A DNA stretch of 64,000 nt from Odiellus spinosus (Eukaryota > Arthropoda > Arachnida > Opiliones > Phalangiidae), in NCBI GenBank assembly GCA_963920705.1, contig CAWUCO010000268.1:5890001-5954000 (forward strand), given 5' to 3'. The notes under the pieces are model-generated. The model was not told the DNA's origin and did no database searches. It was given only the letters and a program-made list of their open reading frames with translations. The first letter of the stretch is position 1. The number at the start of each line of letters is the position of its first letter. Shown here in pieces: positions 9,440 to 62,375 of this stretch. A program made the translations under genes and the position numbers.

Positions 9440-10234
9440 GCCATATTTTTCTTGTTTTTCAACGTATTTTTAAAAACTCTTATTATTTAGACTGTCCATT
9501 TATTGCTCTTTCGAATGACTTTGGTTTTGTCTAAATTGCAAAATTGTGACAAATATAAAATTGGTTAAAATTAAGCAAAAACGCTTAAAAATCCAAGATT
9601 ATTGAATTCAAATGGACACAAAACTTTTGATTTTTAAGCGATTTAGACAAAATTAAGACCACTCGAAAGAGCAAATATTGGTCTATCTGAAAATCAAGAG
9701 TTTTGGAAAATCCGTTGAAAAACATGGAAAATATGGACAATTCAAAAAACATCTAATATCAAAAAGCGAATTTTTAAAATCTTTAATTTGACTATTTTGA
9801 TATTGTATGATTTCTTGAATTGGCCATATTTTTCTTGTTTTTCAACGGATTTTTGAAAACTCTTATTATTTAGACTGTCCATTAATTGCTCTTTCGAATG
9901 ACTTTGGTTTTGTCTAAATTGCAAAATTGTGACAATTATAAAATTGGTTAAAATTAAGCAAAAACACTTAAAAATCCAAGATTATTGGATTCAAATGGTC
10001 ACAAAACTTTTGATTTTTAAGCGATTTAGAAAAATTAGACCACTCGAAAGAGCAAATATTGGTCTATCTAAAAAACATGAGTTTTGGAAAATCCCTTGAA
10101 AAACATGGAAAATTTGGACAATTCAAAAAACATCTAATATCAAAAAGCGAATTTTTAAAATCTGAAATTTGACTATTTTGATATTGTATGATTTCTTGAA
10201 TTGGCCATATTTTTCTTGTTTTTCAACGGATTTT
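9440..10234 (-). repeat. Reverse block 1 (two units)
   Basis: Entry follows TTGAATTG (9432-9439) and exit is at CAACGGATTTT (to 10234), where R allele CTCTTGATTTTCAG resumes. Markers are CAACGTATTTTTAAAAACTC at entry, ATCTTTAATTTG in the first unit, and in the second unit ATGGTCACAAAAC, TTTAGAAAAATTAGACC and TGGAAAATTTGGAC. A private change TTATTGAATTC is at about 9600. The second unit is two bases short, shifting spacing to 1147 for three units. Confidence 0.9.
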
Positions 10235-10968
10235 CGAAAACTCTTGATTTTCAGATAGACCAATATTTGCTCTTTCGAGTGGTCTTAATTTTGTCTAAAT
10301 CGCTTAAAAATCAAAAGTTTTGTGTCCATTTGAATCCAATAATCTTTGATTTTTAAGTGTTTTTGCTTAATTTTAACCAATTTTATATTTGTCACAATTT
10401 TGCAATTTAGACAAAACCAAAGTCATTCGAAAGAGCAATTAATGGACAGACTAAATAATAAGAGTTTTCAAAAATCCGTTGAAAAACAAGAAAAATATGG
10501 CCAATTCAAGAAACCATAGAATATCAAAATAGTCAAATTTCAGATTTTAAAAATTCGCTTTTAGATATTAGATGTTTTTTGAATTGTCCATATTTTCCAT
10601 GTTTTTCAACGGATTTTCCAAAACTCTTGATTTTCAGATAGACCAATATTTGCTCTTTCGAGAGGTCTTAATTTTGTCTAAATCGCTTAAAAATCAAAAG
10701 TTTTGTGTCCATTTGAATCCAATAATCTTGGATTTTTAAGTGTTTTTGCTTAATTTTAACCAATTTTATATTTGTCACAATTTTGCAATTTAGACAAAAC
10801 CAAAGTCATTCGAAAGAGCAATTAATGGACAGTCTAAATAATAAGAGTTTTCAAAATCCGTTGAAAAACAAGAAAAATATGGCCAATTCAAGAAACCATA
10901 TAATATCAAAATAGTCAAATTTCAGATTTTAAAAATTGGCTTTTTGATATTAGATGTTTTTTGAATTG
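10235..10968 (+). repeat. Forward segment 2 (about two units)
   Basis: It begins in R just after the block 1 exit (TTTTCGAAAACTC, a hybrid of the two arm alleles) and contains a unit with AATCTTTGATTTTTAAG and CTTTTAGATATT. It ends in the switching unit with CCATATAATATC and AAAATTGGCTTTTTG. Confidence 0.88.
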
Positions 10969-11763
10969 GCCATATTTTTCTTGTTTTTCAACGTATTTTT
11001 AAAAACTCTTATTATTTAGACTGTCCATTTATTGCTCTTTCGAATGACTTTGGTTTTGTCTAAATTGCAAAATTGTGACAAATATAAAATTGGTTAAAAT
11101 TAAGCAAAAACGCTTAAAAATCCAAGATTATTGGATTCAAATGGACACAAAACTTTTGATTTTTAAGCGATTTAGACAAAATTAAGACCACTCGAAAGAG
11201 CAAATATTGGTCTATCTGAAAATCAAGAGTTTTGGAAAATCCGTTGAAAAACATGGAAAATATGGACAATTCAAAAAACATCTAATATCAAAAAGCGAAT
11301 TTTTAAAATCTTTAATTTGACTATTTTGATATTGTATGATTTCTTGAATTGGCCATATTTTTCTTGTTTTTCAACGGATTTTTGAAAACTCTTATTATTT
11401 AGACTGTCCATTAATTGCTCTTTCGAATGACTTTGGTTTTGTCTAAATTGCAAAATTGTGACAATTATAAAATTGGTTAAAATTAAGCAAAAACACTTAA
11501 AAATCCAAGATTATTGGATTCAAATGGTCACAAAACTTTTGATTTTTAAGCGATTTAGAAAAATTAGACCACTCGAAAGAGCAAATATTGGTCTATCTAA
11601 AAAACATGAGTTTTGGAAAATCCCTTGAAAAACATGGAAAATTTGGACAATTCAAAAAACATCTAATATCAAAAAGCGAATTTTTAAAATCTGAAATTTG
11701 ACTATTTTGATATTGTATGATTTCTTGAATTGGCCATATTTTTCTTGTTTTTCAACGGATTTT
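10969..11763 (-). repeat. Reverse block 2 (two units)
   Basis: It has the same entry word, exit word and internal markers as block 1 (CGTA at entry, ATCTTTAATTTG, ATGGTCACAAAAC, TGGAAAATTTGGAC), with TTGGATTC intact. Its exit leads into a unit with GGATTTTTATGTG and AATTTAAGGGAC rather than the CAGACTAAAT unit that follows block 1. Confidence 0.9.
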
Positions 11764-13648
11764 CGAAAACTCTTGATTTTCAGATAGACCAATATTTGCT
11801 CTTTCGAGTGGTCTTAATTTTGTCTAAATCGCTTAAAAATCAAAAGTTTTGTGTCCATTTGAATCCAATAATCTTGGATTTTTATGTGTTTTTGCTTAAT
11901 TTTAACCAATTTTATAATTGTCACAATTTTGCAATTTAGACAAAACCAAAGTCATTCGAAAGAGCAATTTAAGGGACAGTCTAAATAATAAGAGTTTTCA
12001 AAAATCCGTTGAAAAACAAGAAAAATATGGCCAATTCTAGAAACCATACAATATCAAAATAGTCAAATTTCAGATTTTAAAAATTCGCTTTTTGATATTA
12101 GATGTTTTTTGAATTGGCTATATTTTCCATGTTTTTCAACGGATTTTCCAAAACTCTTGATTTTCAGATAGACCAATATTTGCTATTTCGAGTGGTCTTA
12201 ATTTTGTCTAAATCGCTTAAAAATCAAAAGTTTTGTGTCCATTTGAATCCAATAATCTTGGATTTTTAAGTGTTTTTGCTTAATTTTAACCAATTTTATA
12301 TTTGTCACAATTTTGCAATTTAGACAAAACCAAAGTCATTCGAAAGAGCAATTAATGGACAGTCTAAATAATAAGAGTTTTCAAAAATCCGTTGAAAAAC
12401 AAGAAAAATATGGCCAATTCAAGAAACCATAGAATATCAAAATAGTCAAATTTCAGATTTTAAAAATTCGCTTTTTGATATTAGATGTTTTTTGAATTGT
12501 CCATATTTTCCATGTTTTTCAACGGATTTTCCAAAACTCTTGATTTTCAGATAGACCAATATTTGCTCTTTCGAGTGGTCTTAATTTTGTTTAAATCGCT
12601 TAAAAATCAAAAGTTTTGTGTCCATTTGAATCCAATAATCTTGGATTTTTAAGTGTTTTTGCTTAATTTTAACCAATTTTATATTTGTCACAATTTTGCA
12701 ATTTAGACAAAACCAAAGTCATTCGAAAGAGCAATTAATGGACAGTCTAAATAATAAGAGTTTTCAAAAATCCGTTGAAAAACAAGAAAAATATGGCCAA
12801 TTCAAGAAACCATACAATATCAAAATAGTCAAATTTCAGATTTTAAAAATTCGCTTTTTGATATTAGATGTTTTTTGAATTGGCTATATTTTCCATGTTT
12901 TTCAACGGATTTTCCAAAACTCTTGATTTTCAGATAGACCAATATTTGCTATTTCGAGTGGTCTTAATTTTGTCTAAATCGCTTAAAAATCAAAAGTTTT
13001 GTGTCCATTTGAATCCAATAATCTTTGATTTTTAAGTGTTTTTGCTTAATTTTAACCAATTTTATATTTGTCACAATTTTGCAATTTAGACAAAACCAAA
13101 GTCATTCGAAAGAGCAATTAATGGACAGACTAAATAATAAGAGTTTTCAAAAATCCGTTGAAAAACAAGAAAAATATGGCCAATTCAAGAAACCATAGAA
13201 TATCAAAATAGTCAAATTTCAGATTTTAAAAATTCGCTTTTAGATATTAGATGTTTTTTGAATTGTCCATATTTTCCATGTTTTTCAACGGATTTTCCAA
13301 AACTCTTGATTTTCAGATAGACCAATATTTGCTCTTTCGAGTGGTCTTAATTTTGTCTAAATCGCTTAAAAATCAAAAGTTTTGTGTCCATTTGAATCCA
13401 ATAATCTTGGATTTTTAAGTGTTTTTGCTTAATTTTAACCAATTTTATATTTGTCACAATTTTGCAATTTAGACAAAACCAAAGTCATTCGAAAGAGCAA
13501 TTAATGGACAGTCTAAATAATAAGAGTTTTCAAAAATCCGTTGAAAAACAAGAAAAATATGGCCAATTCAAGAAACCATATAATATCAAAATAGTCAAAT
13601 TTCAGATTTTAAAAATTGGCTTTTTGATATTAGATGTTTTTTGAATTG
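11764..13648 (+). repeat. Forward segment 3 (about five units)
   Basis: It opens with the TTATGTG/TTTAAGGGAC unit, here with a private CCAATTCTAGAAACC at about 12031. A CCATAGAATATC unit, a CCATACAATATC unit and the CAGACTAAAT unit follow, then the switching unit. A TTTTGTTTAAATCGC allele (about 12585) recurs near 24450. Confidence 0.88.
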
Positions 13649-14443
13649 GCCATATTTTTCTTGTTTTTCAACGTATTTTTAAAAACTCTTATTATTTAGA
13701 CTGTCCATTTATTGCTCTTTCGAATGACTTTGGTTTTGTCTAAATTGCAAAATTGTGACAAATATAAAATTGGTTAAAATTAAGCAAAAACGCTTAAAAA
13801 TCCAAGATTATTGGATTCAAATGGACACAAAACTTTTGATTTTTAAGCGATTTAGACAAAATTAAGACCACTCGAAAGAGCAAATATTGGTCTATCTGAA
13901 AATCAAGAGTTTTGGAAAATCCGTTGAAAAACATGGAAAATATGGACAATTCAAAAAACATCTAATATCAAAAAGCGAATTTTTAAAATCTTTAATTTGA
14001 CTATTTTGATATTGTATGATTTCTTGAATTGGCCATATTTTTCTTGTTTTTCAACGGATTTTTGAAAACTCTTATTATTTAGACTGTCCATTAATTGCTC
14101 TTTCGAATGACTTTGGTTTTGTCTAAATTGCAAAATTGTGACAATTATAAAATTGGTTAAAATTAAGCAAAAACACTTAAAAATCCAAGATTATTGGATT
14201 CAAATGGTCACAAAACTTTTGATTTTTAAGCGATTTAGAAAAATTAGACCACTCGAAAGAGCAAATATTGGTCTATCTAAAAAACATGAGTTTTGGAAAA
14301 TCCCTTGAAAAACATGGAAAATTTGGACAATTCAAAAAACATCTAATATCAAAAAGCGAATTTTTAAAATCTGAAATTTGACTATTTTGATATTGTATGA
14401 TTTCTTGAATTGGCCATATTTTTCTTGTTTTTCAACGGATTTT
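13649..14443 (-). repeat. Reverse block 3 (two units)
   Basis: First reverse block of the first 4591-bp copy. Entry carries CAACGTATTTTTAAAAACTC; the exit hybrid TTTTCGAAAACTC leads into GAGAGGTC. The second reverse unit has the two-base loss in TTTAGAAAAATTAGACC. Confidence 0.9.
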
Positions 14444-14795
14444 CGAAAACTCTTGATTTTCAGATAGACCAATATTTGCTCTTTCGAGAGGTCTTAATTT
14501 TGTCTAAATCGCTTAAAAATCAAAAGTTTTGTGTCCATTTGAATCCAATAATCTTTGATTTTTAAGTGTTTTTGCTTAATTTTAACCAATTTTATATTTG
14601 TCACAATTTTGCAATTTAGACAAAACCAAAGTCATTCGAAAGAGCAATTAATGGACAGTCTAAATAATAAGAGTTTTCAAAAATCCGTTGAAAAACAAGA
14701 AAAATATGGCCAATTCAAGAAACCATATAATATCAAAATAGTCAAATTTCAGATTTTAAAAATTGGCTTTTTGATATTAGATGTTTTTTGAATTG
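14444..14795 (+). repeat. Forward island 4, 352 bp between two reverse blocks
   Basis: Only one forward left arm (unit start at 14609) separates block 3 from block 4. It joins an AATCTTTGATTTTTAAG right part to the switching unit (CCATATAATATC, AAAATTGGC). The CAGACTAAAT unit normally present between them is missing, consistent with loss of one unit by unequal exchange. Confidence 0.88.
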
Positions 14796-15590
14796 GCCAT
14801 ATTTTTCTTGTTTTTCAACGTATTTTTAAAAACTCTTATTATTTAGACTGTCCATTTATTGCTCTTTCGAATGACTTTGGTTTTGTCTAAATTGCAAAAT
14901 TGTGACAAATATAAAATTGGTTAAAATTAAGCAAAAACGCTTAAAAATCCAAGATTATTGGATTCAAATGGACACAAAACTTTTGATTTTTAAGCGATTT
15001 AGACAAAATTAAGACCACTCGAAAGAGCAAATATTGGTCTATCTGAAAATCAAGAGTTTTGGAAAATCCGTTGAAAAACATGGAAAATATGGACAATTCA
15101 AAAAACATCTAATATCAAAAAGCGAATTTTTAAAATCTTTAATTTGACTATTTTGATATTGTATGATTTCTTGAATTGGCCATATTTTTCTTGTTTTTCA
15201 ACGGATTTTTGAAAACTCTTATTATTTAGACTGTCCATTAATTGCTCTTTCGAATGACTTTGGTTTTGTCTAAATTGCAAAATTGTGACAATTATAAAAT
15301 TGGTTAAAATTAAGCAAAAACACTTAAAAATCCAAGATTATTGGATTCAAATGGTCACAAAACTTTTGATTTTTAAGCGATTTAGAAAAATTAGACCACT
15401 CGAAAGAGCAAATATTGGTCTATCTAAAAAACATGAGTTTTGGAAAATCCCTTGAAAAACATGGAAAATTTGGACAATTCAAAAAACATCTAATATCAAA
15501 AAGCGAATTTTTAAAATCTGAAATTTGACTATTTTGATATTGTATGATTTCTTGAATTGGCCATATTTTTCTTGTTTTTCAACGGATTTT
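14796..15590 (-). repeat. Reverse block 4 (two units)
   Basis: Same entry and internal markers as block 3. It exits into the GAGTGGTC and AATCTTTGATTTTTAAG unit. Confidence 0.9.
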
Positions 15591-16325
15591 CGAAAACTCT
15601 TGATTTTCAGATAGACCAATATTTGCTCTTTCGAGTGGTCTTAATTTTGTCTAAATCGCTTAAAAATCAAAAGTTTTGTGTCCATTTGAATCCAATAATC
15701 TTTGATTTTTAAGTGTTTTTGCTTAATTTTAACCAATTTTATATTTGTCACAATTTTGCAATTTAGACAAAACCAAAGTCATTCGAAAGAGCAATTAATG
15801 GACAGACTAAATAATAAGAGTTTTCAAAAATCCGTTGAAAAACAAGAAAAATATGGCCAATTCAAGAAACCATAGAATATCAAAATAGTCAAATTTCAGA
15901 TTTTAAAAATTCGCTTTTAGATATTAGATGTTTTTTGAATTGTCCATATTTTCCATGTTTTTCAACGGATTTTCCAAAACTCTTGATTTTCAGATAGACC
16001 AATATTTGCTCTTTCGAGTGGTCTTAATTTTGTCTAAATCGCTTAAAAATCAAAAGTTTTGTGTCCATTTGAATCCAATAATCTTGGATTTTTAAGTGTT
16101 TTTGCTTAATTTTAACCAATTTTATATTTGTCACAATTTTGCAATTTAGACAAAACCAAAGTCATTCGAAAGAGCAATTAATGGACAGTCTAAATAATAA
16201 GAGTTTTCAAAAATCCGTTGAAAAACAAGAAAAATATGGCCAATTCAAGAAACCATATAATATCAAAATAGTCAAATTTCAGATTTTAAAAATTGGCTTT
16301 TTGATATTAGATGTTTTTTGAATTG
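15591..16325 (+). repeat. Forward segment 5 (about two units)
   Basis: It contains the CAGACTAAATAATAAG/CTTTTAGATATT unit and the switching unit, matching the forward parts of the 1529-bp repeat further left. Confidence 0.87.
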
Positions 16326-17120
16326 GCCATATTTTTCTTGTTTTTCAACGTATTTTTAAAAACTCTTATTATTTAGACTGTCCATTTATTGCTCTTTCGA
16401 ATGACTTTGGTTTTGTCTAAATTGCAAAATTGTGACAAATATAAAATTGGTTAAAATTAAGCAAAAACGCTTAAAAATCCAAGATTATTGGATTCAAATG
16501 GACACAAAACTTTTGATTTTTAAGCGATTTAGACAAAATTAAGACCACTCGAAAGAGCAAATATTGGTCTATCTGAAAATCAAGAGTTTTGGAAAATCCG
16601 TTGAAAAACATGGAAAATATGGACAATTCAAAAAACATCTAATATCAAAAAGCGAATTTTTAAAATCTTTAATTTGACTATTTTGATATTGTATGATTTC
16701 TTGAATTGGCCATATTTTTCTTGTTTTTCAACGGATTTTTGAAAACTCTTATTATTTAGACTGTCCATTAATTGCTCTTTCGAATGACTTTGGTTTTGTC
16801 TAAATTGCAAAATTGTGACAATTATAAAATTGGTTAAAATTAAGCAAAAACACTTAAAAATCCAAGATTATTGGATTCAAATGGTCACAAAACTTTTGAT
16901 TTTTAAGCGATTTAGAAAAATTAGACCACTCGAAAGAGCAAATATTGGTCTATCTAAAAAACATGAGTTTTGGAAAATCCCTTGAAAAACATGGAAAATT
17001 TGGACAATTCAAAAAACATCTAATATCAAAAAGCGAATTTTTAAAATCTGAAATTTGACTATTTTGATATTGTATGATTTCTTGAATTGGCCATATTTTT
17101 CTTGTTTTTCAACGGATTTT
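16326..17120 (-). repeat. Reverse block 5 (two units)
   Basis: Third reverse block of the first 4591-bp copy. It exits, as block 2 does, into the GGATTTTTATGTG/AATTTAAGGGAC unit. Confidence 0.9.
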
Positions 17121-18239
17121 CGAAAACTCTTGATTTTCAGATAGACCAATATTTGCTCTTTCGAGTGGTCTTAATTTTGTCTAAATCGCTTAAAAATCAA
17201 AAGTTTTGTGTCCATTTGAATCCAATAATCTTGGATTTTTATGTGTTTTTGCTTAATTTTAACCAATTTTATAATTGTCACAATTTTGCAATTTAGACAA
17301 AACCAAAGTCATTCGAAAGAGCAATTTAAGGGACAGTCTAAATAATAAGAGTTTTCAAAAATCCGTTGAAAAACAAGAAAAATATGGCCAATTCAAGAAA
17401 CCATACAATATCAAAATAGTCAAATTTCAGATTTTAAAAATTCGCTTTTTGATATTAGATGTTTTTTGAATTGGCTATATTTTCCATGTTTTTCAACGGA
17501 TTTTCCAAAACTCTTGATTTTCAGATAGACCAATATTTGCTATTTCGAGTGGTCTTAATTTTGTCTAAATCGCTTAAAAATCAAAAGTTTTGTGTCCATT
17601 TGAATCCAATAATCTTGGATTTTTAAGTGTTTTTGCTTAATTTTAACCAATTTTATATTTGTCACAATTTTGCAATTTAGACAAAACCAAAGTCATTCGA
17701 AAGAGCAATTAATGGACAGTCTAAATAATAAGAGTTTTCAAAAATCCGTTGAAAAACAAGAAAAATATGGCCAATTCAAGAAACCATAGAATATCAAAAT
17801 AGTCAAATTTCAGATTTTAAAAATTCGCTTTTTGATATTAGATGTTTTTTGAATTGTCCATATTTTCCATGTTTTTCAACGGATTTTCCAAAACTCTTGT
17901 TTTTTAGATAGATCAATATTTGCTCTTTCGAGTGGTCTTAATTTTGTCTAAATCGCTTAAAAATCAAAAGTTTTGTGTCCATTTGAATCCAATAATCTTG
18001 GATTTTTAAGTGTTTTTGCTTAATTTTAACCAATTTTATATTTGTCACAATTTTGCAATTTAGACAAAACCAAAGTCATTCGAAAGAGCAATTAATGGAC
18101 AGTCTAAATAATAAGAGTTTTCAAAAATCCGTTGAAAAACAAGAAAAATATGGCCAATTCAAGAAACCATATAATATCAAAATAGTCAAATTTCAGATTT
18201 TAAAAATTGGCTTTTTGATATTAGATGTTTTTTGAATTG
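17121..18239 (+). repeat. Forward segment 6 (about three units)
   Basis: It spans the join of the two 4591-bp copies near 17912. It holds the TTTAAGGGAC unit, a CCATAGAATATC unit whose right arm has CTTGTTTTTTAGATAGATC, and the switching unit. Confidence 0.88.
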
Positions 18240-19034
18240 GCCATATTTTTCTTGTTTTTCAACGTATTTTTAAAAACTCTTATTATTTAGACTGTCCATT
18301 TATTGCTCTTTCGAATGACTTTGGTTTTGTCTAAATTGCAAAATTGTGACAAATATAAAATTGGTTAAAATTAAGCAAAAACGCTTAAAAATCCAAGATT
18401 ATTGGATTCAAATGGACACAAAACTTTTGATTTTTAAGCGATTTAGACAAAATTAAGACCACTCGAAAGAGCAAATATTGGTCTATCTGAAAATCAAGAG
18501 TTTTGGAAAATCCGTTGAAAAACATGGAAAATATGGACAATTCAAAAAACATCTAATATCAAAAAGCGAATTTTTAAAATCTTTAATTTGACTATTTTGA
18601 TATTGTATGATTTCTTGAATTGGCCATATTTTTCTTGTTTTTCAACGGATTTTTGAAAACTCTTATTATTTAGACTGTCCATTAATTGCTCTTTCGAATG
18701 ACTTTGGTTTTGTCTAAATTGCAAAATTGTGACAATTATAAAATTGGTTAAAATTAAGCAAAAACACTTAAAAATCCAAGATTATTGGATTCAAATGGTC
18801 ACAAAACTTTTGATTTTTAAGCGATTTAGAAAAATTAGACCACTCGAAAGAGCAAATATTGGTCTATCTAAAAAACATGAGTTTTGGAAAATCCCTTGAA
18901 AAACATGGAAAATTTGGACAATTCAAAAAACATCTAATATCAAAAAGCGAATTTTTAAAATCTGAAATTTGACTATTTTGATATTGTATGATTTCTTGAA
19001 TTGGCCATATTTTTCTTGTTTTTCAACGGATTTT
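18240..19034 (-). repeat. Reverse block 6 (two units), copy of block 3
   Basis: It lies 4591 bp after block 3 with the same entry, internal and exit alleles, including the following GAGAGGTC. Confidence 0.9.
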
Positions 19035-19386
19035 CGAAAACTCTTGATTTTCAGATAGACCAATATTTGCTCTTTCGAGAGGTCTTAATTTTGTCTAAAT
19101 CGCTTAAAAATCAAAAGTTTTGTGTCCATTTGAATCCAATAATCTTTGATTTTTAAGTGTTTTTGCTTAATTTTAACCAATTTTATATTTGTCACAATTT
19201 TGCAATTTAGACAAAACCAAAGTCATTCGAAAGAGCAATTAATGGACAGTCTAAATAATAAGAGTTTTCAAAAATCCGTTGAAAAACAAGAAAAATATGG
19301 CCAATTCAAGAAACCATATAATATCAAAATAGTCAAATTTCAGATTTTAAAAATTGGCTTTTTGATATTAGATGTTTTTTGAATTG
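19035..19386 (+). repeat. Forward island 7, 352 bp, copy of island 4
   Basis: Single forward left arm (unit start 19200) between blocks 6 and 7, 4591 bp after its counterpart. Confidence 0.87.
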
Positions 19387-20181
19387 GCCATATTTTTCTT
19401 GTTTTTCAACGTATTTTTAAAAACTCTTATTATTTAGACTGTCCATTTATTGCTCTTTCGAATGACTTTGGTTTTGTCTAAATTGCAAAATTGTGACAAA
19501 TATAAAATTGGTTAAAATTAAGCAAAAACGCTTAAAAATCCAAGATTATTGGATTCAAATGGACACAAAACTTTTGATTTTTAAGCGATTTAGACAAAAT
19601 TAAGACCACTCGAAAGAGCAAATATTGGTCTATCTGAAAATCAAGAGTTTTGGAAAATCCGTTGAAAAACATGGAAAATATGGACAATTCAAAAAACATC
19701 TAATATCAAAAAGCGAATTTTTAAAATCTTTAATTTGACTATTTTGATATTGTATGATTTCTTGAATTGGCCATATTTTTCTTGTTTTTCAACGGATTTT
19801 TGAAAACTCTTATTATTTAGACTGTCCATTAATTGCTCTTTCGAATGACTTTGGTTTTGTCTAAATTGCAAAATTGTGACAATTATAAAATTGGTTAAAA
19901 TTAAGCAAAAACACTTAAAAATCCAAGATTATTGGATTCAAATGGTCACAAAACTTTTGATTTTTAAGCGATTTAGAAAAATTAGACCACTCGAAAGAGC
20001 AAATATTGGTCTATCTAAAAAACATGAGTTTTGGAAAATCCCTTGAAAAACATGGAAAATTTGGACAATTCAAAAAACATCTAATATCAAAAAGCGAATT
20101 TTTAAAATCTGAAATTTGACTATTTTGATATTGTATGATTTCTTGAATTGGCCATATTTTTCTTGTTTTTCAACGGATTTT
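19387..20181 (-). repeat. Reverse block 7 (two units), copy of block 4
   Basis: Entry and exit are 4591 bp after those of block 4, with the CGTA entry allele and ATCTTTAATTTG. Confidence 0.9.
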
Positions 20182-24700: not shown

Positions 24701-24746
24701 CAGATTTTAAAAATTCGCTTTTTGATATTAGATGTTTTTTGAATTG
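21712..24746 (+). repeat. Forward segment 9 (about eight units)
   Basis: Right of the second 4591-bp copy the units change type: AATCCATTGAAAAAC (about 22717 and 23485), TTTTTTCTTTATTTT (about 22990), CAATAAATCATAG (23134) and AGATGCTTTTTG (about 23580). From 23782 the TTTAAGGGAC unit and its two followers return. The last unit is a switching unit of a second kind, with CCATATAATATC but AAAATTCGCTTTTTG. Confidence 0.88.
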
Positions 24747-28986: not shown

Positions 28987-29002
28987 CGAAAACTCTTGAT
29001 TT

Positions 29003-35000: not shown

Positions 35001-36400
35001 TTCAAGAAATCATACAATATCAAAATAGTCAAATTTCAGATTTTAAAAATTCGCTTTTTGATATTAGATGCTTTTTGAATTGTCCATATTTTCCATGTTT
35101 TTCAACGGATTTTCCAAAACTGTTGTTTTTTAGATAGACCAATATTTGCTCTTTCGAGTGGTCTTAATTTTGTCTAAATCGCTTAAAAATCAAAAGTTTT
35201 GTGTCCATTTGAATCCAATAATCTTGGATTTTTAAGTGTTTTTGCTTTATTTTAACCAATTTTATATTTGTCACAATTTTGCAATTTAGACAAAACCAAA
35301 GTCATTCGAAAGAGCAATTAATGGACAGTCTAAATAACAAGAGTTTTCAAAAATCCGTTGAAAAACAAGAAAAATATGGCCAATTCAAGAAATCATACAA
35401 TATCAAAATAGTCAAATTTCAGATTTTAAAAATTCGCTTTTTGATATTAGATGTTTTTTGAATTGTCCATATTTTCCATGTTTTTCAACGGATTTTCCAA
35501 AACTCTTGTTTTTTAGATAGACCAATATTTGCTCTTTCGAGTAGTCTTAATTTTGTCTAAATCGCTTAAAAATCAAAAGTTTTGTGTCCATTTGAATCCA
35601 ATAATCTTGATTTTTAAGTGTTTTTGCTTTATTTTAACCAATTTTATATTTGTCACAATTTTGCAATTTAGACAAAACCAAAGTCATTCGAAAGAGCAAT
35701 TAATGGACAGTCTAAATAACAAGAGTTTTCAAAAATCCGTTGAAAAACAAGAAAAATATGGCCAATTCAAGAAATCATACAATATCAAAATAGTCAAATT
35801 TCAGATTTTAAAAATTCGCTTTTTGATATTAGATGTTTTTTGAATTGTCCATATTTTCCATGTTTTTCAACGGATTTTCCAAAACTCTTGTTTTTTAGAT
35901 AGACCAATATTTGCTCTTTCGAGAGGTCTTAATTTTGTTTAAATCGCTTAAAAATCAAAAGTTTTGTGTCCATTTGAATCCAATAATCTTGGATTTTTAA
36001 GTTTTTTTGCTTTATTTTAACCAATTTTATATTTGTCACAATTTTGCAATTTAGACAAAACCAAAGTCATTCGAAAGAGCAATTAATGGACAGTCTAAAT
36101 AACAAGAGTTTTCAAAAATCCGTTGAAAAACAAGAAAAATATGGCCAATTCAAGAAATCATACAATATCAAAATAGTCAAATTTCAGATTTTAAAAATTC
36201 GCTTTTTGATATTAGATGCTTTTTGAATTGTCCATATTTTCCATGTTTTTCAACGGATTTTCCAAAACTCTTGTTTTATAGATAGACCAATATTTGCTCT
36301 TTCGAGTGGTCTTAATTTTGTCTAAATCGCTTAAAAATCAAAAGTTTTGTGTCCATTTGAATCCAATAATCTTGGATTTTTAAGTGTTTTTGCTTTATTT
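29003..36400 (+). repeat. 4212-bp higher-order repeat (11 units), about 1.8 copies
   Basis: Markers recur at +4212: CATTCGAGAGAGC (29563/33775), TATTGGTCAC (30671/34883), the lost-base AATCTTGATTTTTAAG (31391/35603), TTTTTAAGTTTTTTTGC (about 31787/35999) and CTTGTTTTATAG (about 32060/36272). The copies differ at AAATATGGCTAATTC (30778) against AAATATGGCCAATTC, and at GAGTGGTC (about 31709) against GAGAGGTC (about 35921). The match fails after about 36.4 kb. Confidence 0.84.
32598..34895 (+). repeat. 1149-bp trimer within the 4212-bp repeat
   Basis: Units at 32598, 32981 and 33364 correspond to those at 33747, 34130 and 34513, and to 29535, 29918 and 30301. The order is the GAGAGAGC unit, the GTCACTCG unit, then a CCATAGAAT unit. 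The nesting shows that the trimer and the 11-unit repeat formed in separate events. Confidence 0.78.
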
Positions 36401-36826
36401 TAACCAATTTTATATTTGTCACAATTTTGCAATTTAGACAAAACCAAAGTCATTCGAAAGAGCAATTAATGGACAGTCTAAATAACAAGAGTTTTCAAAA
36501 ATCCGTTGAAAAACAAGAAAAATATGGCCAATTCAAGAAATCATACAATATCAAAATAGTCAAATTTCAGATTTTAAAAATTCGCTTTTTGATATTAGAT
36601 GTTTTTTGAATTGTCCATATTTTCCATGTTTTTCAACGGATTTTCCAAAACTCTTGTTTTATAGATAGACCAATATTTGCTCTTTCGAGTAGTCTTAATT
36701 TTGTCTAAATCGCTTAAAAATCAAAAGTTTTGTGTCCATTTGAATCCAATAATCTTGGATTTTTAAGTGTTTTTGCTTTATTTTAACCAATTTTATATTT
36801 GTCACAATTTTGCAATTTAGACAAAA

Positions 36827-37081
36827 CCAAAGTCATTCGAAAGAGCAATTAATGGACAGTCTAAATAATAAGAGTTTTCAAAAATCCGTTGAAAAACAAG
36901 AAAAATATGGCCAATTCAAGAAACCATATAATATCAAAATAGTCAAATTTCAGATTTTAAAAATTCGCTTTTTGATATTAGATGTTTTTTGAATTGGCCA
37001 TATTTTTCTTGTTTTTCAACGGATTTTTAAAAACTCTTATTATTTAGACTGTCCATTTATTGCTCTTTCGAATGACTTTGG
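36827..37081. repeat. Near-perfect palindrome at the entry of reverse block 12
   Basis: The 91 bases 36827-36917 and 36991-37081 are reverse complements with two mismatches seen (CAATTAATGG against CAATAAATGG, TTTTCAAAAA against TTTTTAAAAA), around a 73-bp centre. The match continues outward through TTTAGACAAAAC, TTGCAA and the unpaired segment, so the inverted repeat is much longer than the part measured here. Equivalent structures occur at every block entry, because a forward L faces an inverted L there. Confidence 0.85.
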
Positions 37082-37791
37082 TTTTGTCTAAATTGCAAAA
37101 TTGTGACAAATATAAAATTGGTTAAAATTAAGCAAAAACGCTTAAAAATCCAAGATTATTGGATTCAAATGGACACAAAACTTTTGATTTTTAAGCGATT
37201 TAGACAAAATTAAGACCACTCGAAAGAGCAAATATTGGTCTATCTGAAAATCAAGAGTTTTGGAAAATCCGTTGAAAAACATGGAAAATATGGACAATTC
37301 AAAAAACATCTAATATCAAAAAGCGAATTTTTAAAATCTGAAATTTGACTATTTTGATATTGTATGATTTCTTGAATTGGCCATATTTTTCTTGTTTTTC
37401 AACGGATTTTTGAAAACTCTTATTATTTAGACTGTCCATTAATTGCTCTTTCGAATGACTTTGGTTTTGTCTAAATTGCAAAATTGTGACAATTATAAAA
37501 TTGGTTAAAATTAAGCAAAAACACTTAAAAATCCAAGATTATTGGATTCAAATGGTCACAAAACTTTTGATTTTTAAGCGATTTAGAAAAATTAGACCAC
37601 TCGAAAGAGCAAATATTGGTCTATCTAAAAAACATGAGTTTTGGAAAATCCCTTGAAAAACATGGAAAATTTGGACAATTCAAAAAACATCTAATATCAA
37701 AAAGCGAATTTTTAAAATCTGAAATTTGACTATTTTGATATTGTATGATTTCTTGAATTGGCCATATTTTTCTTGTTTTTCAACGGATTTT
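36997..37791 (-). repeat. Reverse block 12 (two units)
   Basis: Entry at TTGAATTG (36989-36996), junction alleles AAAATTCGC and CAACGGATTTTTAAAAAC. Unlike blocks 1-11 its first unit has ATCTGAAATTTG. The second unit is the ATGGTCACAAAAC/TGGAAAATTTGGAC form and the exit is TTTTCGAAAACTC. Confidence 0.9.
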
Positions 37792-40700
37792 CGAAAACTC
37801 TTGATTTTCAGATAGACCAATATTTGCTCTTTCGAGTGGTCTTAATTTTGTCTAAATCGCTTAAAAATCAAAAGTTTTGTGTCCATTTGAATCCAATAAT
37901 CTTGGATTTTTAAGTGTTTTTGCTTAATTTTAACCAATTTTATATTTGTCACAATTTTGCAATTTAGACAAAACCAAAGTCATTCGAAAGAGCAATTAAT
38001 GGACAGTCTAAATAATAAGAGTTTTCAAAAATCCGTTGAAAAACAAGAAAAATATGGCCAATTCAAGAAATCATAGAATATCAAAATAGTCAAATTTCAG
38101 ATTTTCAAAATTCGCTTTTTGATATTAGATGTTTTTTGAATTGTCCATATTTTCCATGTTTTTCAACGGATTTTCCAAAACTCTTGTTTTTTAGATAGAC
38201 CAATATTTGCTCTTTCGAGTAGTCTTAATTTTGTCTAAATCGCTTAAAAATCAAAAGTTTTGTGTCCATTTGAATAAAATAATCTTGGATTTTAAGTGTT
38301 TTTGCTTTATTTTAACCAATTTTATATTTGTCACAATTTTGCAATTTAGACAAAACCAAAGTCATTCGAAAGAGCAATTAATGGACAGTCTAAATAACAA
38401 GAGTTTTCAAAAATCCGTTGAAAAACAAGAAAAATATGGCCAATTCAAGATATCATACAATATGAAAATAGTCAAATTTCAGATTTTAAAAATTCGCTTT
38501 TTGATATTAGATGTTTTTTGAATTGTCCATATTTTCCATGTTTTTCAACGGATTTTCCAAAACTCATGTTTTTTAGATAGACCAATATTTGCTCTTTCGA
38601 GTGGTCTTAATTTTGTCTAAATCGCTTAAAAATCAAAAGTTTTGTGTCCATTTTAATCCAATAATCTTGGATTTTTAAGTGTTTTTGCTTAATTTTAACC
38701 AATTTTATATTTGTCACAATTTTGCAATTTAGACAAAACCAAAGTCATTCGAAAGAGCAATTAATGGACAGTCTAAATAATAAGAGTTTTCAAAAATCCG
38801 TTGAAAAACAAGAAAAATATGGCCAATTCAAGAAATCATAGAATATCAAAATAGTCAGATTTCAGATTTTCAAAATTCGCTTTTTGATATTAGATGTTTT
38901 TTGAATTGTCCATATTTTCCATGTATTTCAACGGATTTTCCAAAACTCTTGTTTTTTAGATAGACCAATATTTGCTCTTTCGAGTAGTCTTAATTTTGTC
39001 TAAATCGCTTAAAAATCAAAAGTTTTGTGTCCATTTGAATAAAATAATCTTGGATTTTTAAGTGTTTTTGCTTTATTTTAACCAATTTTATATTTGTCAC
39101 AATTTTGCAATTTAGACAAAACCAAAGTCATTCGAAAGAGCAATTAATGGACAGTCTAAATAACAAGAGTTTTCAAAAATCCGTTGAAAAACAAGAGAAA
39201 TATGGCCAATTCAAGAAATCATACAATATCAAGATAGTCAAATTTCAGATTTTAAAAATTCGCTTTTTGATATTAGATGTTTTTTGAATTGTCCATATTT
39301 TCCATGTTTTTCAACGGATTTTCCAAAACTCATGTTTTTTAGATAGACCAATATTTGCTCTTTCGAGTGGTCTTAATTTTGTCTAAATCGCTTAAAAATC
39401 AAAAGTTTTGTGTCCATTTGAATCCAATAATCTTGGATTTTTAAGCGTTTTTGCTTAATTATAACCAATTTTATATTGGTCACAATTTTGCAATTTAGAC
39501 AAAACCAAAGTCATTCGAAAGAGCAATTAATGGACAGTCTAAATAACAAGAGTTTTCAAAAATCCGTTGAAAAACAAGAAAAATATGGCCAATTCAAGAA
39601 ACCATACAATATCAAAATAGTCAAATTTCAGATTTTAAAAATTCGCTTTTTGATATTAGATGTTTTTTGAATTGGCTATATTTTCCATGTTTTTCAACGG
39701 ATTTTCCAAAACTCTTGATTTTCAGATAGACCAATATTTGCTCTTTCGAGGGGTCTTAATTTTGTCTAAATCGCTTAAAAATCAAAAGTTTTGTGTCCAT
39801 TTGAATCCAATAATCTTGGATTTTTAAGTGTTTTTGCTTTATTTTAACCAATTTTATATTTGTCACAATTTTGCAATTTAGACAAAACCAAAGTCATTCG
39901 AAAGAGCAATTAATGGACAGTCTAAATAACAAGAGTTTTCAAAAATCCGTTGAAAAACAAGAGAAATATGGCCAATTCAAGAAATCATACAATATCAAGA
40001 TAGTCAAATTTCAGATTTTAAAAATTCGCTTTTTGATATTAGATGTTTTTTGAATTGTCCATATTTTCCATGTTTTTCAACGGATTTTCCAAAACTCATG
40101 TTTTTTAGATAGACCAATATTTGCTCTTTCGAGTGGTCTTAATTTTGTCTAAATCGCTTAAAAATCAAAAGTTTTGTGTCCATTTGAATCCAATAATCTT
40201 GGATTTTTAAGCGTTTTTGCTTAATTATAACCAATTTTATATTGGTCACAATTTTGCAATTTAGACAAAACCAAAGTCATTCGAAAGAGCAATTAATGGA
40301 CAGTCTAAATAACAAGAGTTTTCAAAAATCCGTTGAAAAACAAGAAAAATATGGCCAATTCAAGAAACCATACAATATCAAAATAGTCAAATTTCAGATT
40401 TTAAAAATTCGCTTTTTGATATTAGATGTTTTTTGAATTGGCTATATTTTCCATGTTTTTCAACGGATTTTCCAAAACTCTTGATTTTCAGATAGACCAA
40501 TATTTGCTCTTTCGAGGGGTCTTAATTTTGTCTAAATCGCTTAAAAATCAAAAGTTTTGTGTCCATTTGAATCCAATAATCTTGGATTTTTAAGTGTTTT
40601 TGCTTTATTTTAACCAATTTTATATTTGTCACAATTTTGCAATTTAGACAAAACCAAAGTCATTCGAAAGAGCAATTAATGGACAGTCTAAATAATAAGA

Positions 40701-40823
40701 GTTTTCAAAAATCCGTTGAAAAACAAGAAAAATATGGCCAATTCAAGAAACCATATAATATCAAAATAGTCAAATTTCAGATTTTAAAAATTCGCTTTTT
40801 GATATTAGATGTTTTTTGAATTG
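37792..40823 (+). repeat. Forward segment 13 (about eight units)
   Basis: Units near 38.0-39.3 kb return to the types seen in the first 5 kb: ATCATAGAATATC with CAGATTTTCAAAATTC, CATTTGAATAAAATAATC (38270, 39036) and CTCATGTTTTTTAG. Private changes include GTCAGATTTCAG (38866) and CATGTATTTCAACGG (38922). Confidence 0.88.
39105..40636 (+). repeat. 766-bp dimer repeat, two copies
   Basis: A unit with AACAAGAGAAATATGG (39190, 39956) and CTCATGTTTTTTAG is followed by a unit with TTAATTATAACC, TATTGGTCAC, CCATACAATATC and GAGGGGTC (39747, 40513). The pair repeats after 766 bp. Confidence 0.82.
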
Positions 40824-41235
40824 GCCATATTTTTCTTGTTTTTCAACGGATTTTTAAAAACTCTTATTATTTAGACTGTCCATTTATTGCTCTTTCGAAT
40901 GACTTTGGTTTTGTCTAAATTGCAAAATTGTGACAATTATAAAATTGGTTAAAATTAAGCAAAAACACTTAAAAATCCAAGATTATTGGATTCAAATGGT
41001 CACAAAACTTTTGATTTTTAAGCGATTTAGAAAAATTAGACCACTCGAAAGAGCAAATATTGGTCTATCTGAAAATCAAGAGTTTTGGAAAATCCGTTGA
41101 AAAACATGGAAAATATGGACAATTCAAAAAACATCTAATATCAAAAAGCGAATTTTTAAAATCTGAAATTTGACTATTTTGATATTGTATGATTTCTTGA
41201 ATTGGCCATATTTTTCTTGTTTTTCAACGGATTTT
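40824..41235 (-). repeat. Reverse block 13 (one unit), hybrid interior
   Basis: A one-unit block whose left part has alleles of the second unit of the long blocks (TGACAATTATAAAATTGG, ATGGTCACAAAAC, TTTAGAAAAATTAGACC) and whose right part has first-unit alleles (GTCTATCTGAAAATCAAGAG, TGGAAAATATGGAC). It therefore looks like a two-unit block collapsed by exchange between its units. Two bases short, as expected from TTTAGAAAAATTAG. Confidence 0.87.
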
Positions 41236-41970
41236 CCAAAACTCTTGATTTTCAGATAGACCAATATTTGCTCTTTCGAGTGGTCTTAATTTTGTCTAAA
41301 TCGCTTAAAAATCAAAAGTTTTGTGTCCATTTGAATCCAATAATCTTGGATTTTTAAGTGTTTTTGCTTAATTTTAACCAATTTTATATTTGTCACAATT
41401 TTGCAATTTAGACAAAACCAAAGTCATTCGAAAGAGCAATTAATGGACAGTCTAAATAATAAGAGTTTTCAAAAATCCGTTGAAAAACAAGAAAAATATG
41501 GCCAATTCAAGAAACCATAGAATATCAAAATAGTCAAATTTCAGATTTTAAAAATTCGCTTTTTGATATTAGATGTTTTTTGAATTGTCCATATTTTCCA
41601 TGTTTTTCAACGACTTTTCCAAAACTCTTGATTTTCAGATAGACCAATATTTGCTCTTTCGAGTGGTCTTAATTTTGTATAAATCGCTTAAAAATCAAAA
41701 GTTTTGTGTCCATTTGAATCCAATAATCTTGGATTTTTAAGTGTTTTTGCTTAATTTTAACCAATTTTATATTTGTCACAATTTTGCAATTTAGACAAAA
41801 CCAAAGTCATTCGAAAGAGCAATTAATGGACAGTCTAAATAATAAGAGTTTTCAAAAATCCGTTGAAAAACAAGAAAAATATGGCCAATTCAAGAAACCA
41901 TATAATATCAAAATAGTCAAATTTCAGATTTTAAAAATTCGCTTTTTGATATTAGATGTTTTTTGAATTG
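41236..41970 (+). repeat. Forward segment 14 (about two units)
   Basis: It carries CAACGACTTTTCC (about 41609) and TTTTGTATAAATCGC (about 41675), the marker pair of the 1149-bp repeat, then a switching unit with CCATATAATATC and AAAATTCGC. Confidence 0.87.
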
Positions 41971-42384
41971 GCCATATTTTTCTTGTTTTTCAACGGATTT
42001 TTAAAAACTCTTATTATTTAGACTGTCCATTAATTGCTCTTTCGAATGACTTTGGTTTTGTCTAAATTGCAAAATTGTGACAAATATTAAATTGGTTAAA
42101 ATTAAGCAAAAACGCTTAAAAATCCAAGATTATTGGATTCAAATGGACACAAAACTTTTGATTTTTAAGCGATTTAGACAAAATTAAGACCACTCGAAAG
42201 AGCAAATATTGGTCTATCTGAAAATCAAGAGTTTTGGAAAATCCGTTGAAAAACATGGAAAATATGGACAATTCAAAAAACATCTAATATCAAAAAGCGA
42301 ATTTTTAAAATCTGAAATTTGACTATTTTGATATTGTATGATTTCTTGAATTGGCCATATTTTTCTTGTTTTTCAACGGATTTT
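41971..42384 (-). repeat. Reverse block 14 (one unit)
   Basis: Block of the first 1149-bp copy: ATCTGAAATTTG, CCATTAATTGCTC (not CCATTTATTGCTC as in blocks 1-13) and CAAATATTAAATTGG. Exits with TTTTCCAAAACTC. Confidence 0.9.
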
Positions 42385-43119
42385 CCAAAACTCTTGATTT
42401 TCAGATAGACCAATATTTGCTCTTTCGAGTGGTCTTAATTTTGTCTAAATCGCTTAAAAATCAAAAGTTTTGTGTCCATTTGAATCCAATAATCTTGGAT
42501 TTTTAAGTGTTTTTGCTTAATTTTAACCAATTTTATATTTGTCACAATTTTGCAATTTAGACAAAACCAAAGTCATTCGAAAGAGCAATTAATGGACAGT
42601 CTAAATAATAAGAGTTTTCAAAAATCCGTTGAAAAACAAGAAAAATATGGCCAATTCAAGAAACCATAGAATATCAAAATAGTCAAATTTCAGATTTTAA
42701 AAATTCGCTTTTTGATATTAGATGTTTTTTGAATTGTCCATATTTTCCATGTTTTTCAACGACTTTTCCAAAACTCTTGATTTTCAGATAGACCAATATT
42801 TGCTCTTTCGAGTGGTCTTAATTTTGTATAAATCGCTTAAAAATCAAAAGTTTTGTGTCCATTTGAATCCAATAATCTTGGATTTTTAAGTGTTTTTGCT
42901 TAATTTTAACCAATTTTATATTTGTCACAATTTTGCAATTTAGACAAAACCAAAGTCATTCGAAAGAGCAATTAATGGACAGTCTAAATAATAAGAGTTT
43001 TCAAAAATCCGTTGAAAAACAAGAAAAATATGGCCAATTCAAGAAACCATATAATATCAAAATAGTCAAATTTCAGATTTTAAAAATTCGCTTTTTGATA
43101 TTAGATGTTTTTTGAATTG
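42385..43119 (+). repeat. Forward segment 15 (about two units)
   Basis: Same unit succession and marker pair as segment 14, 1149 bp later. Confidence 0.86.
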
Positions 43120-43533
43120 GCCATATTTTTCTTGTTTTTCAACGGATTTTTAAAAACTCTTATTATTTAGACTGTCCATTAATTGCTCTTTCGAATGACT
43201 TTGGTTTTGTCTAAATTGCAAAATTGTGACAAATATTAAATTGGTTAAAATTAAGCAAAAACGCTTAAAAATCCAAGATTATTGGATTCAAATGGACACA
43301 AAACTTTTGATTTTTAAGCGATTTAGACAAAATTAAGACCACTCGAAAGAGCAAATATTGGTCTATCTGAAAATCAAGAGTTTTGGAAAATCCGTTGAAA
43401 AACATGGAAAATATGGACAATTCAAAAAACATCTAATATCAAAAAGCGAATTTTTAAAATCTGAAATTTGACTATTTTGATATTGTATGATTTCTTGAAT
43501 TGGCCATATTTTTCTTGTTTTTCAACGGATTTT
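43120..43533 (-). repeat. Reverse block 15 (one unit)
   Basis: Copy of block 14 at +1149, with the same CAAATATTAAATTGG allele. Confidence 0.9.
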
Positions 43534-44268
43534 CCAAAACTCTTGATTTTCAGATAGACCAATATTTGCTCTTTCGAGTGGTCTTAATTTTGTCTAAATC
43601 GCTTAAAAATCAAAAGTTTTGTGTCCATTTGAATCCAATAATCTTGGATTTTTAAGTGTTTTTGCTTAATTTTAACCAATTTTATATTTGTCACAATTTT
43701 GCAATTTAGACAAAACCAAAGTCATTCGAAAGAGCAATTAATGGACAGTCTAAATAATAAGAGTTTTCAAAAATCCGTTGAAAAACAAGAAAAATATGGC
43801 CAATTCAAGAAACCATAGAATATCAAAATAGTCAAATTTCAGATTTTAAAAATTCGCTTTTTGATATTAGATGTTTTTTGAATTGTCCATATTTTCCATG
43901 TTTTTCAACGACTTTTCCAAAACTCTTGATTTTCAGATAGACCAATATTTGCTCTTTCGAGTGGTCTTAATTTTGTATAAATCGCTTAAAAATCAAAAGT
44001 TTTGTGTCCATTTGAATCCAATAATCTTGGATTTTTAAGTGTTTTTGCTTAATTTTAACCAATTTTATATTTGTCACAATTTTGCAATTTAGACAAAACC
44101 AAAGTCATTCGAAAGAGCAATTAATGGACAGTCTAAATAATAAGAGTTTTCAAAAATCCGTTGAAAAACAAGAAAAATATGGCCAATTCAAGAAACCATA
44201 TAATATCAAAATAGTCAAATTTCAGATTTTAAAAATTCGCTTTTTGATATTAGATGTTTTTTGAATTG
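43534..44268 (+). repeat. Forward segment 16 (about two units)
   Basis: Third occurrence of the CAACGACTTTTCC/TTTTGTATAAATC unit plus the switching unit. Confidence 0.86.
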
Positions 44269-44682
44269 GCCATATTTTTCTTGTTTTTCAACGGATTTTT
44301 AAAAACTCTTATTATTTAGACTGTCCATTAATTGCTCTTTCGAATGACTTTGGTTTTGTCTAAATTGCAAAATTGTGACAAATATAAAATTGGTTAAAAT
44401 TAAGCAAAAACGCTTAAAAATCCAAGATTATTGGATTCAAATGGACACAAAACTTTTGATTTTTAAGCGATTTAGACAAAATTAAGACCACTCGAAAGAG
44501 CAAATATTGGTCTATCTGAAAATCAAGAGTTTTGGAAAATCCGTTGAAAAACATGGAAAATATGGACAATTCAAAAAACATCTAATATCAAAAAGCGAAT
44601 TTTTAAAATCTGAAATTTGACTATTTTGATATTGTATGATTTCTTGAATTGGCCATATTTTTCTTGTTTTTCAACGGATTTT
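44269..44682 (-). repeat. Reverse block 16 (one unit)
   Basis: Copy of block 14 with the common CAAATATAAAATTGG allele. The forward arm that follows has private changes TTTTCATGTAGACC (about 44696) and AAAAGTTATGTGTCC (about 44760). Confidence 0.9.
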
Positions 44683-46183
44683 CCAAAACTCTTGATTTTC
44701 ATGTAGACCAATATTTGCTCTTTCGAGTGGTCTTAATTTTGTCTAAATCGCTTAAAAATCAAAAGTTATGTGTCCATTTGAATCCAATAATCTTGGATTT
44801 TTAAGTGTTTTTGCTTAATTTTAACCAATTTTATATTTGTCACAATTTTGCAATTTAGACAAAACCAAAGTCATTCGAAAGAGCAATTAATGGACAGTCT
44901 AAATAATAAGAGTTTTCAAAAATCCGTTGAAAAACAAGAAAAATATGGCCAATTCAAGAAACCATAGAATATCAAAATAGTCAAATTTCAGATTTTAAAA
45001 ATTCGCTTTTTGATATTAGATGTTTTTTGAATTGTCCATATTTTCCATGTTTTTCAACGACTTTTCCAAAACTCTTGATTTTCAGATAGACCAATATTTG
45101 CTCTTTCGAGTGGTCTTAATTTTGTATAAATCGCTTAAAAATCAAAAGTTTTGTGTCCATTTGAATCCAATAATCTTGGATTTTTAAGTGTTTTTGCTTA
45201 ATTTTAACCAATTTTATATTTGTCACAATTTTGCAATTTAGACAAAACCAAAGTCATTCGAAAGAGCAATTAATGGACAGTCTAAATAATAAGAGTTTTC
45301 AAAAATCCGTTGAAAAACAAGAAAAATATGGCCAATTCAAGAAACCATAGAATATCAAAATAGTCAAATTTCAGATTTTAAAAATTCGCTTTTTGATATT
45401 AGATGTTTTTTGAATTGTCCATATTTTCCATGTTTTTCAACGGATTTTCCAAAACTCTGGTTTTTTAGATAGACCAATATTTACTCTTTCGAGTGGTCTT
45501 AATTTTGTATAAATCGCTTAAAAATCAAAAGTTTTGTGTCCATTTGAATCCAATAATCTTGGATTTTTAAGTGTTTTTGCTTAATTTTAACCAATTTTAT
45601 ATTTGTCACAATTTTGCAATTTAGACAAAACCAAAGTCATTCGAAAGAGCAATTAATGGACAGTCTAAATAATAAGAGTTTTCAAAAATCCGTTGAAAAA
45701 CAAGAAAAATATGGCCAATTCAAGAAACCATAGAATATCAAAATAGTCAAATTTCAGATTTTAAAAATTCGCTTTTTGATATTAGATGTTTTTTGAATTG
45801 TCCATATTTTCCATGTTTTTCAACGGATTTTCCAAAACTCTGGTTTTTTAGATAGACCAATATTTACTCTTTCGAGTGGTCTTAATTTTGTCTAAATCGC
45901 TTAAAAATCAAAAGTTTTGTGTCCATTTGAATCCAATAATCTTGGATTTTTAAGTGTTTTTGCTTTATTTTAACCAATTTTATATTTGTCACAATTTTGC
46001 AATTTAGACAAAACCAAAGTCATTCGAAAGAGCAATTAATGGACAGTCTAAATAATAAGAGTTTTCAAAAATCCGTTGAAAAACAAGAAAAATATGGCCA
46101 ATTCAAGAAACCATATAATATCAAAATAGTCAAATTTCAGATTTTAAAAATTCGCTTTTTGATATTAGATGTTTTTTGAATTG
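44683..46183 (+). repeat. Forward segment 17 (about four units)
   Basis: Two neighbouring units share CTCTGGTTTTTTAG and CAATATTTACTC (about 45455 and 45838, 383 bp apart), a single-unit duplication. It ends in a switching unit preceded by TTTTTGCTTTATTTT. Confidence 0.87.
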
Positions 46184-46597
46184 GCCATATTTTTCTTGTT
46201 TTTCAACGGATTTTTAAAAACTCTTATTATTTAGACTGTCCATTAATTGCTCTTTCGAATGACTTTGGTTTTGTCTAAATTGCAAAATTGTGACAAATAT
46301 AAAATTGGTTAAAATTAAGCAAAAACGCTTAAAAATCCAAGATTATTGGATTCAAATGGACACAAAACTTTTGATTTTTAAGCGATTTAGACAAAATTAA
46401 GACCACTCGAAAGAGCAAATATTGGTCTATCTGAAAATCAAGAGTTTTGGAAAATCCGTTGAAAAACATGGAAAATATGGACAATTCAAAAAACATCTAA
46501 TATCAAAAAGCGAATTTTTAAAATCTGAAATTTGACTATTTTGATATTGCATGATTTCTTGAATTGGCCATATTTTTCTTGTTTTTCAACGGATTTT
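46184..46597 (-). repeat. Reverse block 17 (one unit), last reverse block in the window
   Basis: Same form as blocks 14-16, with a private GATATTGCATGATTTC (about 46543). No reverse-oriented unit is found to the right of 46597. Confidence 0.9.
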
Positions 46598-62342: not shown

Positions 62343-62375
62343 ATTAATGGACAGTCTAAATAATAAGAGTTTTCA

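Follow-up and report, generated by a model that had tools for sequence, protein, structure and literature searches.

The satellite monomer and its orientation switches

The stretch of DNA analysed here (the window) comprises 64,000 nucleotides of the Odiellus spinosus genome, positions 5,890,001-5,954,000 of contig CAWUCO010000268.1 (C261; other contigs are likewise given by number), in an assembly of 443 Mb and 286 contigs. It is occupied throughout (1..64000, no strand assigned) by an AT-rich satellite array with a period of 383 bp, as determined with Tandem Repeats Finder, a consensus, and self-alignment. The monomer is an imperfect dyad. Its L arm (monomer positions 337-383 plus 1-145) and its R arm (146-336), an inverted relative of L, are ∼191 bp each, and 142 of the 200 aligned columns are identical between L and inverted R; the longest inter-arm identical run, 18 bp, is the longest anywhere in the monomer. 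When folded as a single strand, one forward monomer reached −82.2 kcal/mol, compared with a mean of −32.7 kcal/mol for 100 shuffled sequences (z −14.7). Because the monomer is nearly palindromic, both strands look alike, and "orientation" here denotes how the two arm types are assigned to the slots of an alternating chain. This chain is built from two quasi-palindromic modules, P (∼141 bp, axis inside the monomer) and D (∼242 bp, axis between monomers), which meet at a core of ∼50 bp that is present in both arms in opposite orientation.

Orientation switches (flips) were called with a two-strand profile Viterbi procedure over the 383-bp monomer, and all of them were read from the assembled sequence alone. 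The window contained 17 reverse blocks (minus strand) with 29 reverse monomers. Ten blocks held two monomers (blocks 1 to 9 at 9440..10229, 10969..11758, 13649..14438, 14796..15585, 16326..17115, 18240..19029, 19387..20176, 20917..21706, and 24747..25536, and block 12 at 36997..37786), six held one (block 10 at 26661..27069 and blocks 13 to 17 at 40824..41230, 41971..42379, 43120..43528, 44269..44677, and 46184..46592), and one held three (block 11 at 27810..28981). The 17 forward-to-reverse switches were all placed at +187|−102 (R180-187, adjoining L102), and the 17 reverse-to-forward switches all at −77..−74|+214..217 (R201-218). When the switch point was allowed to slide, the former interval became R179-197, the widening being due to the polymorphic position R188, and the latter R201-219. 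Each switch point coincides with an identical run common to L and inverted R, namely TTGAATTG (R180-187 = L103-110) and TGTTTTTCAACGGATTTT (R201-218 = L72-89). The initial annotation of the window, which had reported 17 flips at the same two points of the monomer and junction words shared by L and inverted R, was thus correct on both counts. The register is preserved as well, with spacings of 235 (234 once) and 529 or 531; the shortfall of two bases reflects an internal deletion at 270/277 in the last reverse monomer. In a control array assembled from 500 real forward units drawn at random (191,447 bases), no switch was called, so the switches of the window are not a product of chance.

The structure of the junctions is illustrated by two hybrid arms. 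The forward-to-reverse arm at 9432..9480 (plus strand) is R-type up to TTGAATTG and inverted L-type thereafter, and it carries the lineage marker TTTTTAAAAACTC. The reverse-to-forward arm at 10200..10247 (plus strand) is inverted L-type up to TTCTTG and R-type past the 18-bp shared run. The right edge of the latter class is not perfectly clean, because the base after C219 is an L-type G in 11 of the 17 junctions. Block 11 additionally held a 27-bp forward R-type tract (∼28165-28191) that interrupts a reverse L arm, and four more tracts of this kind were found in the right flank of the window. All flips of the window, and most of those nearby, connect R-type with inverted L-type sequence within the core, with the register kept. 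One forward R arm, at 47368, carried only the L bases TCTT (∼197-200), in a tract of at most ∼30 bp.

The window's reverse blocks are copies of one lineage

The first reverse monomer carried T at L70 in all 17 blocks, compared with none of 138 forward units. The second reverse monomer was identical over all 383 positions, including four private sites, in each of the 11 blocks that contain this unit type. The window contained 19 occurrences of the marker (G/T)ATTTTTAAAAACTC, compared with a single one in the remaining 265.7 kb of the sequence sampled for markers (329.7 kb). Part of the copying can be read off directly: blocks 3 to 5 recur as blocks 6 to 8 within a 4,591-bp duplication of 12 monomers (13649-18239 and 18240-22830), each copy of which holds three reverse blocks, with the order of units equal in both except for one unit at the end. 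When the units were labeled by cluster, the module "<8 <9 >7 >6" and its relatives recurred in the window, and the neighboring one-monomer and three-monomer blocks (26661 and 27810) resemble unequal-exchange products. The 17 blocks are, therefore, copies of one local lineage carrying private bases, and not the outcome of 17 events. This removes the premise of the initial annotation that 17 inversions at two shared sites call for an explanation, whereas its suggestion that flipped units spread by amplification is supported by the shared private alleles and the identical second reverse monomers.

Assembly error is an unlikely source of the flips. That they lie on a satellite contig, and that five contigs of the assembly have sizes in exact thousands (C261, 6,235,000; C229, 336,000; C100, 678,000; C138, 119,000; C116, 82,000), which suggests cuts by a scaffolding tool, would be compatible with collapsed or chimeric reads having produced them. 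However, 25 of the 29 reverse monomers differed at 7-14 positions from the preceding forward monomer (the other four at 38-39, missing positions of split units being counted), so that they are not fold-back read artefacts of a neighbor, and the same junctions recurred with other near-private variants on other contigs. An artefact of this type is accordingly considered very improbable.

A one-step inversion was also rejected for the blocks of the window. It predicts a change from inverted R to L at one end, whereas all 34 switches (from R to inverted L, or from inverted L to R) lie in the same arm slot, so that either a later exchange or a copy-and-return step is needed.

Junction classes in the flanks and across the assembly

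The window and 200 kb of flanking sequence were read as one continuous stretch of 264 kb. The flank contained 31 switches; after 12 switches belonging to micro-tracts had been removed by hand (two tracts of 7 bp with 4 switches and four of 27 bp with 8), 19 flips were left, of which 15 lay in the two intervals used in the window and 4 outside them (hand count). Scattered breakpoints elsewhere in the array, which the initial annotation had named as evidence that would speak against it, were thus mostly not seen nearby, the four outlying flips being the part that departs from it. Long stretches in the surroundings of the window, of 61.5, 55.9, and 29.5 kb, were free of flips. In the left flank, a segment of 33.8 kb (C261:5,851,527-5,885,301) is reversed as a whole and has one junction of each kind at its ends, as a simple inversion between an L arm and an R arm would leave.

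Ten more sites in the genome, selected by similarity to the reverse block of the window and therefore biased toward that block, contained the window's two intervals and others. Together with the 264 kb, they yielded 122 switches. The two main intervals accounted for 45 switches of each kind and the interval 200-218 for 8 forward-to-reverse switches; the remainder formed smaller classes at 161-171, 180-198, and 220-233, apart from a few odd cases. Among twelve further sites, nine, which matched the query in part, contained no flip.

For the whole assembly, junction forms were counted as exact 51-mer matches on both strands. The forward-to-reverse form with an L-type middle, which has the switch point of the window, was present in 3,151 copies, a number that excludes the window's own copies because of their private base (a variant pattern with a stricter left end, but with patched arms included, gave 3,039). 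The forward-to-reverse form with an R-type middle, switching at 201-218, was more frequent, with 6,070 copies. The reverse-to-forward form with an L-type middle was found 1,008 times; this is an underestimate, since A227, which prevents a match, is present in 24 of the 29 arms of this form sampled outside C261. Its counterpart with an R-type middle amounted to at most 185 copies, a count that takes in runs at single-monomer spacing and hence probably plain R arms with one change. Unflipped R arms with an L-type patch numbered 146, and the standard R arm, in one allelic form (C227), 23,274. A single base of the 51-mers tells L-type from R-type proximal ends, and the 51-mers end short of the distal diagnostic bases; in the sampled sequence, L-type sequence followed all 30 matches to the first and all 14 matches to the second forward-to-reverse pattern, and R-type sequence followed 15 of 16 reverse-to-forward matches. 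The genome, thus, also contains switch points other than the two of the window, and the window's forward-to-reverse point is not the most common.

Copies elsewhere also bear marks of common descent. On C6, nine forward-to-reverse copies, picked from the first 100 listed, were all true flips, and all nine carried TTATTATTAAGAC. In the marker sample, TTATTATTAAGAC was found in 14 hybrid arms and in two near-standard L arms of the window with one further change each, and in no exact standard L arm. TTTAAAC was present in 20 of 20 arms with an R-type middle and an L-type distal part (two of them, at the sampled locus L031, with an L-type proximal end), and also in three exact standard L arms. A227, carried by the 24 of 29 arms with an L-type middle and an R-type distal part already mentioned (from C59, C6, C100, and C138), occurred in only 3 of 536 standard R arms of the sample and in 227 genome-wide. 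These markers lie within ∼50 bp of the switch and, therefore, argue for few founding junctions. When founder effects were tested by locus at nine sites (P values uncorrected), the outcome was mixed, with modal alleles overrepresented at L60 (12/12 loci, P = 0.002), L120 (14/15, P = 0.002), and R265 (15/15, P = 0.04). Most of the sampled copies elsewhere belong to few lineages tagged by near-private variants.

Flips smaller than a monomer were observed as well. At C6:83,851-84,850, the strand changes every 141 or 242 bp, P in forward orientation alternating with D in reverse, and lone segments of 114-141 bp between switches were found on C59, C100, C138, and C6. The submonomer flips use the same 18-bp run of the core. 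Exchange between neighboring arms can, therefore, invert either module alone, and on C6 the flipped form, P forward and D reverse, is now a short tandem monomer of its own.

Origin of the junctions

The position of the flips corresponds to the part of the monomer in which the arms match best. Between R180 and R229, four inter-arm identical runs of 8, 9, 18, and 9 bp follow each other nearly end to end, and this homology alone can, we infer, explain where flips occur. The distribution of L alleles in R arms points in the same direction: they were found at a frequency of 36% at position 188, 7% at 198, and 6% at 200, but at only 0-0.2% at 179, 219, and 220, which indicates that inter-arm tracts end where the flips end. 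At monomer positions 60 and 115 in the L arm and 188 in the R arm, alleles of one arm reached 36-43% in the other, possibly a sign of frequent inter-arm conversion.

The junctions probably originated, in our view, when the two inverted dyad arms underwent homologous exchange in their best-matching ∼50 bp, which founded a few junction lineages that were subsequently amplified. The founding step would be an exchange of an L arm with an R arm, either by crossover or by gap repair with copying of n inverted monomers and a return. The edges left by that exchange in adjacent homology runs (of 8-17 bp and of 18 bp), which flank the L-type bases 188-200, would then be the two constant points. Ordinary recombination between repeats, i.e., unequal exchange and conversion, may since have multiplied and shuffled the junctions and altered the length of the blocks. 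The identical modules and shared near-private variants suggest that such spread occurred between repeats and also between contigs.

Several observations weigh against this origin or restrict it. Two other inter-arm runs of 12 bp, further out, were not seen to be used in register. Among monomers, the core shows no unusual conservation (ranks 56 and 82 of 383), and the idea of a specially conserved core found no support. The founder signal by locus was weak at R176 (11/12, P = 0.08) and L115 (12/15, P = 0.08), and no overrepresentation was seen at R150, R231, R236, and L2. At the locus C261:1.92M, the R allele located 4 bp from the edge is not the same, which makes one or more additional events, or a subsequent exchange, likely, and the near-private markers differ between lineages, so that the common form does not go back to one single founder. 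The founding junctions must have been followed by some exchange or accompanied by further events.

Template switching during replication would, moreover, leave the same junctions. A fork stalled at the hairpin would switch to the complementary arm via 8-18 bp of homology, copy one to three monomers backwards, and return, so that an inverted block would be inserted, amplification following thereafter. As expected from copying out and returning, the two ends of each block of the window are no more than ∼40 bp apart in the same arm slot, and the blocks comprise whole numbers of monomers; the monomer, as mentioned above, also folds far better than shuffled sequences. The 33.8-kb reverse segment and the lone half-monomer flips, however, fit simple reciprocal exchange as well or better. 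No sequence mark distinguishes template switching from crossover. We regard template switching as rather unlikely. The initial annotation had left the choice between homologous exchange and template switching between the arms of the dyad; exchange between arms as such agrees with junctions in the best-matching part of the arms and with the preserved register, whereas the sequence does not decide between the two routes.

If, in contrast, the core were a recurrent hot spot, for example, a nick site or a protein-bound site, many flips would have arisen there independently. At least three forward-to-reverse forms and several reverse-to-forward forms within R161-233 are in line with this notion, and in nematodes, satellite rearrangement has been linked to a CENP-B-box-like motif (PMC3694981). 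On the other hand, the main forms are tagged by near-private variants, and a CENP-B-box nick site found no support in the monomer. The best match to the 17-bp consensus was 10 of 17, which 199 of 200 shuffled sequences equalled, and the 7 matches among the nine essential bases were equalled by 45 of 200. A hot spot of this kind is, thus, improbable. A shufflon-like mechanism, in which a recombinase would invert DNA site-specifically at the 18-bp repeat, is scarcely credible: inverted copies of one 18-bp word do bound the invertible modules P and D, but crossovers were found in several homology runs (179-197, 201-219, and 220-233; at least four in all), also outside the 18-bp word, where one exact point is expected, and patches transferred from arm to arm exist.

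Such patches were also considered as the substrate of the flips. An unflipped forward R arm at 8285..8331 (plus strand) contains an L-type patch whose left edge and private bases are those of the window's forward-to-reverse junctions, and a regular expression recovered 28 exact unflipped forward arms in C261:5800001-5840000 with L-type patches whose edges are the two flip points. A model in which crossovers took place inside a pre-made 39-bp identity was set aside, given 146 patched arms compared with 3,151 flipped copies genome-wide and R-side alleles of the patched arms that are unlike those of the window's reverse-to-forward arms. The patched arms are more likely recombinants between two junction types, and a patch-first origin is retained as a possibility.

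Returning to exchange between arms, it may extend to a modular chain in which P and D each flip, alone or in runs, via the shared core, as a homology-driven counterpart of a shufflon, with flips founding new monomer families; we put this forward tentatively, as less probable than its opposite. If true, a change of orientation would be a routine route to new satellite types, and "conserved inversion sites" would have a neutral account.

The closest known case is found in Tribolium madens, where satellite arrays change orientation at a few sequence-conserved sites that recur thousands of times across contigs (Veseljak et al, 2026; PMC13081366). The monomers of TmSat2 are long inverted repeats, ectopic recombination between similar inverted subunits has been proposed for this satellite, and conservation of the inversion sites was interpreted as possibly indicating structural or functional significance. 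The array of O. spinosus likewise flips at sequence-conserved sites that are repeated genome-wide (17 plus 17 in the window; 3,151, 6,070, and 1,008 exact copies), and long inverted arms make up most of its monomer, as in TmSat2 and in the satellite type of Tribolium brevicornis. The latter, as cited there, has a monomer of 1061 bp with inverted segments of ∼470 bp and differs in size from the 383 bp found here. In T. madens, however, the inverted subarrays measure several kilobases, mostly with two per array, whereas the blocks of the window comprise one to three monomers and half-monomer flips occur elsewhere in the genome. Large inverted subarrays with a tendency to symmetry are typical of the T. 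madens arrays; here, the 264 kb read continuously contain one large reverse segment, that of 33.8 kb in the left flank. The present array behaves like the T. madens satellites but at a finer scale. In Meloidogyne, satellite monomer junctions lie at the CENP-B-box-like Box 1, which is conserved between otherwise divergent repeats (PMC3694981). There, too, junctions coincide with a short shared motif, but they join different satellites and are not orientation flips, and no CENP-B-like box was found in the monomer studied here. Flips of single or half monomers in a dyad satellite were not named in the titles and abstract openings of the open-licence papers searched.

In contrast to the interpretation given for T. 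madens, near-private variants show that descent from few events can explain much of the site conservation here. Conserved inversion sites have been taken as hints of structural or functional importance. In the present array, private and near-private variants show that very many identical switch points can arise from few exchanges between palindrome arms followed by amplification. This constitutes a testable null model, which yields marked lineages whose spread can be traced between contigs.

Three further features of the array were noted. At C261:6041820-6042333, ∼510 bp inside the array were not fitted by the satellite profile. The region ∼47300-52000 of the window is a flip-free higher-order repeat of three monomers (unit clusters 28-29-30). 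Three monomers of 331 bp (at 54198, 54911, and 56007) lack the same 52 bases, monomer positions 159-210, which include much of the flip core; this shared loss is probably due to one deletion that was copied.

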